In this document: positions 1-40,823 of the stretch, piece by piece
Layout: the number at the start of each line of letters is the position of its first letter
Position numbering within the stretch: position 1 is the stretch's first letter
NCBI GenBank assembly: GCA_903825395.1
Contig: CAIKAF010000022.1
Span: forward strand, 1-40,835
Length of the DNA stretch: 40,835 bases
Source: an uncultured Flavobacteriales bacterium
Lineage (GTDB): Bacteria; Bacteroidota; Bacteroidia; CAIKAF01
Direction: 5' to 3'
Notes under the pieces: model-generated
Databases searched by the model: none
Seen by the model: the letters and a program-made list of their open reading frames with translations, nothing else
Told to the model about the DNA's origin: nothing
Made by a program: the position numbers and the translations under genes

Positions 1-116
1 ATTTGCCCTTGACAAGGCGAAATAAGTTCGGTATCTTCGTAGTTCACTGGTGAAACGTTCTTTTTTGCTTCGTCACGTATTGGGGTGGCGAAGAACACTT
101 CGGGTTTGTTTTTGAT
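1..116. other. Noncoding left edge
   Basis: No convincing gene is visible here. A short imperfect hairpin is present, with CTTCGTCAC at 68-76 facing GTGGCGAAG at 85-93 (one mismatch, 8-base loop). A TATCTTCG string at 33-40 resembles a weak Bacteroidota -7 element. The stretch leads into the long diverged repeat starting near 117. Short open frames here lack a recognisable protein. Confidence 0.4.
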
Positions 117-320
117 GTGAAGTCTGTTTTTGAATTTTGGTTTGGCGGAAACGCTTGACCTAATTCATTGGGGCGTCTCAGAAATGCCTTCTGAAACAAC
201 ATCGATTTCTTTGTTGAATTGGAAGGCGGGAATCTCGGGTATGAGACTGGGTTGGTGTGGCATATCAGCCTTTTTTATGCGGGGAGGAAAACAAAGGAGA
301 GAAAGATGGAGGAGGGGGTG
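117..320 (+). repeat. Long diverged intergenic repeat, copy A
   Basis: This stretch aligns with the reverse complement of 40615-40823. Shared blocks in order are GTGAA, GAATTT, TTGGGG, GTCTCAGAAA (175-184), TTCTGAA (189-195), ATGAGACTGG (241-250), CCTTTTT (269-275) and a purine-rich GGAGG tract. GTCTCAG to ATGAGACTGG is exactly 66 bases in both copies, and ATGAGACTGG to CCTTTTT is 28 in both. GTCTCA (175-180) is complementary to TGAGAC (242-247), and TCAGAA with TTCTGA can form a small competing hairpin. I do not recognise the family. It could be a structured RNA, a dispersed DNA element or a decayed short gene. Open frames at 130-321 and 257-487 cross it, but I do not call them genes. Confidence 0.55.
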
Positions 321-507
321 AGTCCTTTGGTTGGAAACTCTCGCTTTTTTTAGATAACGGCAGCCTGGCATTCAGGTTTACATCCAGCCAAGGTATTGGT
401 TCGGATGCTTCGGCATTGGACAAAACTCAACAAAACGGCTTTCTCCGGGCCCTTTCCCGGGAAAACCTATACCTCGAAAATTGTTAACTCCGTATTTGTC
501 TTGGTAC
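321..507. other. Noncoding stretch between two repeats
   Basis: No gene is supported. A few words (CAGCC at 361-365, TTCAGG at 371-376, TATTGGT near 394) recur in the same order beyond copy B of the long repeat but with different spacing, so the repeat may extend weakly into this stretch. A short GC-rich palindrome (CCGGG, six bases, CCCGG) lies near 437-452 and lacks a following T-run. Confidence 0.3.
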
Positions 508-40391: not shown

Positions 40392-40614
40392 CGATTGGTA
40401 TTGTATGGCCATATTGAAAAAAAACAATGGCGTGAAGGGGGTTCAGTAAGGGGAAGGGTAATCGGGAGTCGAGAATTCCCTTTGAGGGCGGTCGGTCGAT
40501 ACCAATAGCAATTTCCTGAAGGCTGCGCTTAAGCTTTACCCAAAAAAGGTTGCCTCGCGCCCTTCGGGTCGCCAACGTTTTCCATCACATAAAGGAAACT
40601 TGAAAATTTATTTG
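40392..40614. other. Noncoding stretch at the right edge
   Basis: No gene is supported. Words CAGCC, TTCAGG and TATTGGT on the minus strand (40501-40525) recur in the same order after copy A of the long repeat, though with different spacing. The minus-strand open frame 40327-40575 has no recognisable product. Confidence 0.35.
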
Positions 40615-40823
40615 CCCCTCCTCTTTTCCTCTCCTCCTCAAATCCCCTTCCAATTTCCCCTCCTGTAAAAAGGATGAATTTGCCAGTTCATCCAGTCTCA
40701 TTCCCATGCTCCCGCTTCCTGCACCAGCAAAGTTGCCTTTGCACGATTCAGAAAGCTTTTCTGAGACTCCCCAAGGCGAACCTGGTTCCGTTTTTCAACT
40801 TCCCCAAATTCCCGTAGTTCACT
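40615..40823 (-). repeat. Long diverged intergenic repeat, copy B
   Basis: This is the reverse-oriented relative of 117-320. GTCTCAG lies at 40761-40767 and ATGAGACTGG at 40692-40701 on the minus strand, exactly 66 bases apart start to start, as in copy A. GTCTCA and TGAGAC can pair across the interval, and TCAGAAA-AGC-TTTCTGA forms a 7-base-pair hairpin. Downstream on the minus strand is a strongly purine-rich tract rich in GGAGG and GGGG words. The element runs close to the window edge and may continue beyond it. Confidence 0.55.

Follow-up and report, generated by a model that had tools for sequence, protein, structure and literature searches.

The stretch of DNA analysed here (the window, 40,835 bases) carries related sequences near both of its ends, which raises the question of what this repeat is and why it lies there. 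A sequence-only reading had aligned positions 117–320 (+) with 40823–40615 (−) and had attributed the match to common descent under constraint. The homology of the two segments was confirmed by a local alignment score of 48, compared with 19.8 ± 2.7 in dinucleotide shuffles (n = 1000; maximum 41, 0/1000 reaching 48). The global score of the two window copies, A and B, was 47.5, and the shuffle maximum was 20.5. An HMM built from A-type copies only found copy B with an E-value of 1.5e-13, the next best match in the window having an E-value of 0.5. The motifs GTCTCAG, ATGAGACTGG and CCTTTTT start at 175, 241 and 269 (+) and at 40767, 40701 and 40673 (−), and the proposed spacings of 66 and 28 bases are exact in both copies. 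The outer helix of H4 (GTCTCA/TGAGAC) accounts for the 66 bases, which separate its two strands; the further 28 bases lead from one of these strands to the terminator tail. The diverged bases between the motifs are helix strands that covary, which bears out the view that equal spacing with diverged filler reflects descent and constraint. The repeat unit extends beyond the two segments noted first.

The window is the entire contig C22 of its own genome (G000; 2,625,067 bases in 33 contigs). Because its ends overlap other contig ends exactly over 141 nt, they are assembly breaks inside a dispersed repeat; constant exact overlaps at a repeat are typical output of k-mer assemblers. Copies lie at both window ends because the contig stops inside repeat copies. 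Thus, of the claim that copies match at opposite ends of the window, the homology stood and the end placement proved to be an effect of assembly. These breaks could also suggest that the repeat is an assembly artefact, or else a known RNA or insertion sequence. We find this hardly credible, since 22 copies have the whole RNA region and nearly all of these lie far from contig ends, with different flanks, and three further genomes carry the repeat. The element had no match among the covariance models of Rfam 15, at permissive thresholds too, and no match to the repeat was found in viral, phage and plasmid collections.

The expected further copies were found in numbers, dispersed in the own genome and in three congeners. 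A covariance model (R1), run after a DNA search, gave 32 matches in G000, of which 22 were complete in the RNA region and the remainder were contig-end pieces. The broader model R2 gave 34 matches, the extra two again being contig-end pieces. Pairing these pieces leaves approximately 28 copies in G000, a count whose exactness is limited by the contig-end copies, as all four carriers are drafts and three are named as MAGs. Among the congeners, G005 had 28 matches, G003 had 14–15 and G001 had 6–8. Two weak G001 matches look like one decayed and one very diverged copy. Zero matches were obtained with R1 and R2 in G002 and G004. The carriers are therefore four of the six sampled members of one genus, and because the copy number within this genus ranges from 0 to approximately 28, the RNA is not essential to it. 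The 389 genomes searched from other genera of the same class gave no clear match under strict filters and with five candidates per genome. A weak R2 match in G007, from another genus (E-value 1e-3, in the smaller search only), lacked the promoter and the GTCTCA core and was attributed to chance. An exact-pattern scan of 84,980 species had matches in three draft genomes alone, all from uncultured Bacteroidota: VGMT01, JAQCBQ01 and CAILUT01. These correspond to the carriers G005, G003 and G001; CAILUT01 originates from Lake Erken and is labelled Flavobacteriales. These results place the RNA family, which is previously undescribed, in a single genus of lake-dwelling Bacteroidota.

All copies share one order of parts: an A-rich stretch, a promoter, a structured RNA, a terminator and a 3′ module (Table 1). 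The promoter form TTGA-N19-TAnnTTTG, which we take to be the housekeeping form of Bacteroidota, occurs in 54 of the 60 scorable copies. Promoters of the TTGA/TAnnTTTG type have been named canonical sigma-ABfr promoters (PMC11697453). The conserved unit opens a few bases past the promoter with the 12-base palindrome TTCAYYRRTGAA. The T run of the terminator is poor (three T or fewer) in 18 of 65 copies. The 3′ module, of approximately 190 bases with further hairpins, is weakly conserved and is copied along with the RNA. A purine-rich tract directly follows the terminator in most copies (277–345 (+) and 40666–40600 (−) in the window) and contains GGAGG-like words in many of them; this tract is likewise weakly conserved and copied with the unit.

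Table 1. Coordinates of the repeat features and assembly breaks in the window.
Feature	Position	Strand	Basis or remark
Copy A promoter, Bacteroidota type TTG...TAnnTTTG: TTGACA 9–14, TATCTTCG 32–39	9–39	+	
Copy A structured RNA, full length, ~234 nt	43–276	+	R1/R2 models; start inferred from promoter
5′ palindromic 12-mer TTCACTGGTGAA; TTCATCGATGAA in B-type copies	43–54	+	
Helix H1, CTTCGTCAC/GTGGCGAAG, conserved GGGG loop	68–93	+	
Helix H2, conserved GGG bulge; C-G to G-C swap between subfamilies	97–123	+	covariation
Hairpin H3, variable, strongly covarying; missing from two copies	132–166	+	
Composite hairpin H4: GTCTCA/TGAGAC outer helix, conserved asymmetric internal loop, variable apical stem	175–247	+	
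Copy A intrinsic terminator, GGGTTGGT...ATCAGCC and T run	249–276	+	
Copy A 3′ module: purine-rich tract, hairpin 381–407, CCGGGCCCTTTCCCGGG 445–461	277–466	+	
Copy B structured RNA, B subfamily, 5′ part lost at contig end	40667–40835	−	
Copy B terminator, GGATGAAC...ATTCATCC and T run, compensatory to that of copy A	40667–40693	−	
Copy B 3′ module	40470–40666	−	
Exact 141-nt overlap with contig ends C10 and C16	1–141	+	assembly break
Exact 141-nt overlap with the start of C17	40695–40835		assembly break

The alignment of 62 copies showed eight covarying helices in an RNA of approximately 235 nt, the last helix being the intrinsic terminator. Standard pairs made up 91.1% of pair cells, compared with 82.2% in shuffles and at most 45% in slid controls; both sides had changed in 35 of 59 pairs. 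Double-change cells numbered 358 against 134 in shuffles, with 0/500 shuffles as high, and the covariation score was 0.330 against 0.176. All covariation measures exceeded those of all 500 shuffles and all slid controls, in an alignment that had been fitted to the structure and thereby favours covariation. An independent RNAalifold run on a MAFFT alignment of the first 11 copies gave 16 compensatory pairs. The sequence of the terminator stem differs wholly between the subfamilies and its pairing is kept. Single copies also folded more stably than shuffles, with z-scores of −4.35, −5.60 and −4.69 (copy A −4.35, copy B about −4.7).

A small protein gene was considered for the same sequence, given a short frame in the S1 5′ region of some copies. 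We judge it very improbable: the changes track base pairing, and the frame and strand are inconsistent among copies. No conserved ORF was found, the ORFs that overlap copies varying in strand and length. One-base indels in the conserved part disrupt every frame there, even between close copies, so a conserved peptide is ruled out. The initial observation that no annotated gene explains the copies therefore agrees with the empty Rfam search and the absent conserved ORF. Judged by the covariation and the shared order of parts, the repeat encodes a structured non-coding RNA, with a predicted promoter and terminator of its own.

Five unpaired runs of three to four G are nearly invariant among the 62 copies. 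Their places include the H1 loop, the H2 bulge, a GGGG before H4 and the H4 internal loop. Such runs might make a tertiary G-G contact or be bound by a protein. RRM_1 proteins are present in each of the six congeners, whether or not it carries the RNA.

The placement of the copies was compared with that of background gene pairs derived from our own ORF calls. Convergent genes flank 31 of 52 copies, and 35 of 328 background pairs are convergent (p = 4e-14); when the background was restricted to gaps of at least 60 bases, its convergent share was 16% (p = 3e-8). This placement and the intrinsic terminator would suit a cis-acting insulator or bidirectional terminator between convergent genes, in which the RNA is a transcription roadblock only. 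We consider this improbable, because a conserved promoter and four upstream helices with conserved loops are superfluous for a terminator alone and 21 of the 52 copies lie outside convergent pairs. Moreover, the proteins encoded by 20 neighbouring genes are housekeeping proteins without a functional theme, which argues against a cis role in local control.

The core of a second repeat lies within 700–900 bases of 30 of the 65 copies, mostly 150–280 bases before or 445–630 bases after the RNA start. This second family consists of near-perfect palindromes of approximately 150 nt with the constant core GCGGTGGCTCCCAAGGTCGCCTCC and constant rims. The arms are copy-specific in sequence, yet the two arms of a copy pair nearly perfectly. 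In the window, palindromic cores lie near 572 (−), 8667 (+), 21241 (−) and 34917 (+). There are 35 copies in 309 kb of G000, or approximately 300 per genome if they are evenly spread, and the palindromic repeat is present in G001, G003 and G005 too. At the site G000_C23_96815 (L032, near 4536; orthologues L239 and L240), three species have this palindrome, its core and rims conserved and its arms entirely different; the RNA element is there in G000 only.

The comparison of close species showed both selection on the RNA and turnover of its copies. At two orthologous sites of G000 and G005, the RNA body is 87–88% identical, the promoter 64–66% and the 3′ module 57–58%. The upstream flanks are 36–56% identical and the next 700 bases downstream 67–76%. 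The RNA body is more conserved than its flanks, and therefore the RNA is under selection and single copies are maintained as RNA. The A-type copies in G000 are 96–97% identical to one another, the mark of recent bursts. At the C23:96815 site, 56–72 bp separate the flank matches in G001 and G005, compared with approximately 570 bp including the copy in G000, in intergenic DNA too diverged to place sharp insertion boundaries. These alignments show that the element arrives at new sites. Two G005 sites have the element inverted relative to G000, with the flanking convergent genes unchanged, and another G005 site holds a different subfamily (switch sites G000_C15_89261/G005_C19_15716, G000_C33_8631/G005_C15_35048 and G000_C23_57922/G005_C6_100878). 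The flanks of two copies in G003, G003_C114 (L134) and G003_C138 (L142), match two different G000 sites. Copies may have recombined there, or the MAG contigs may be chimeric and joined wrongly across the repeat.

This turnover gives weight to the main rival explanation, in which the repeat would be a selfish, non-autonomous mobile element, its RNA would help the element to be copied and its conservation would reflect the needs of mobility. The recent bursts, the empty sites in congeners, the exchange of subfamily or orientation at shared intergenic sites, the adjoining palindromic repeats and the movement of a 3′ module that is not part of the RNA all fit such an element. Nevertheless, we rate it as somewhat unlikely. 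Terminal inverted repeats were not found, and five copies, whose element boundaries are fuzzy, showed no target-site duplication. The search for a mover covered reverse transcriptase, which all four carriers lack, and Y1 transposase, which is absent from G001 and G005. Dead insertions would also not usually persist as single orthologues in more than one species, with an RNA better conserved than its flanks.

Known classes of mobile element were rejected individually. A MITE does not agree with the missing terminal inverted repeats. A retron, group II intron or DGR was discarded because reverse transcriptase occurs in none of the four carriers and only in two non-carriers, and a REP/RAYT or IS200-like element because Y1 transposase is missing from the carriers G001 and G005.

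An intermediate reading, which we hold tentatively as an unlikely one, is a mobile RNA gene: a promoter-bearing unit without inverted ends or an enzyme of its own that would insert beside long palindromic repeats at gene 3′ ends, spread at the DNA level by some mobilising machine and have its single copies kept by selection. If true, bacteria would have a counterpart to SINE-like RNA gene families.

Most likely, in our view and with moderate confidence, the copies are independent structured RNA genes of approximately 235 nt that form a multicopy trans-acting sRNA family. The RNA is probably regulatory. The copies would be transcribed together from promoters of the primary sigma factor into an abundant RNA pool acting in trans. 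The invariant G-rich unpaired segments would be the places where target mRNAs or a protein make contact, and the variable outer stems would only hold the shape. The family may spread when promoter, RNA and 3′ module are copied together as DNA (approximately 460 bp) into the intergenic space separating two convergent genes, in many cases next to a palindromic repeat. The weakly conserved 3′ module that travels along counts against a plain sRNA gene, which does not need one. The poor T runs of some copies and the range of copy numbers within the genus also speak against the sRNA reading.

The RNA family is missing from all annotation libraries searched. It allows one to trace, between close species, how RNA genes arise, disappear, are replaced and come under selection, and the repeat explains the break points of draft genomes of these organisms.

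MITE/REP-type repeats are non-coding, dispersed, intergenic and hairpin-forming, with species-specific bursts. The present repeat shares all these features but differs in its promoter, in its conserved multi-helix RNA with a terminator, and in that no terminal inverted repeats were found, nor any target duplications in five copies with fuzzy boundaries. SmelA075/SmelA099 and other multicopy trans-sRNAs of Rhizobiales have several copies per genome and hairpins of modular build, in which the loop motifs are constant and the stem sequences free, and a gain of copies through mobile DNA is suspected (PMC3927594). Compared by description, the present family resembles them in its multiple copies, modular hairpins, constant loops and free stems; it belongs to another phylum, and its loops are G-rich whereas theirs are CCUCCUCCC anti-SD loops. 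Rfp18 of Flavobacterium is a structured sRNA with a tested regulatory effect, described as a single gene (PMC9723704). It is like the present RNA in structure and in its origin from Flavobacteriales, but by description it is one gene and not a dispersed family.

The FopS family of Bacteroides comprises 14 paralogous sRNAs (12–15 per genome) that have canonical promoters and repress susC mRNAs (PMC11697453). These RNAs of approximately 65–70 nt have a 5′ seed and are bound by RbpB, and the R1′ seed pairs with susC starts (PMC11697453). As expected of multicopy sRNAs, the present family has several dispersed paralogues per genome and, by sequence, a promoter and a terminator at each copy, the latter with a weak T run in 18 of 65. 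It shares with FopS the phylum, multicopy paralogues, the canonical Bacteroidota sigma promoter, a mostly intergenic location and a conserved core. Compared by description, it differs in its eight helices and about twice as many copies, and the RNA body of approximately 235 nt excludes FopS proper, with its approximately 65–70 nt. FopS is widespread in Bacteroidaceae, whereas the present RNA occurs in one genus. Approximately 28 promoter-driven folded RNA copies in this genome of 2.6 Mb are a large investment, greater than the 12–15 of FopS. By analogy, the present RNA would be comparable in kind to FopS at most, and FopS appears to be its closest documented case in the phylum.
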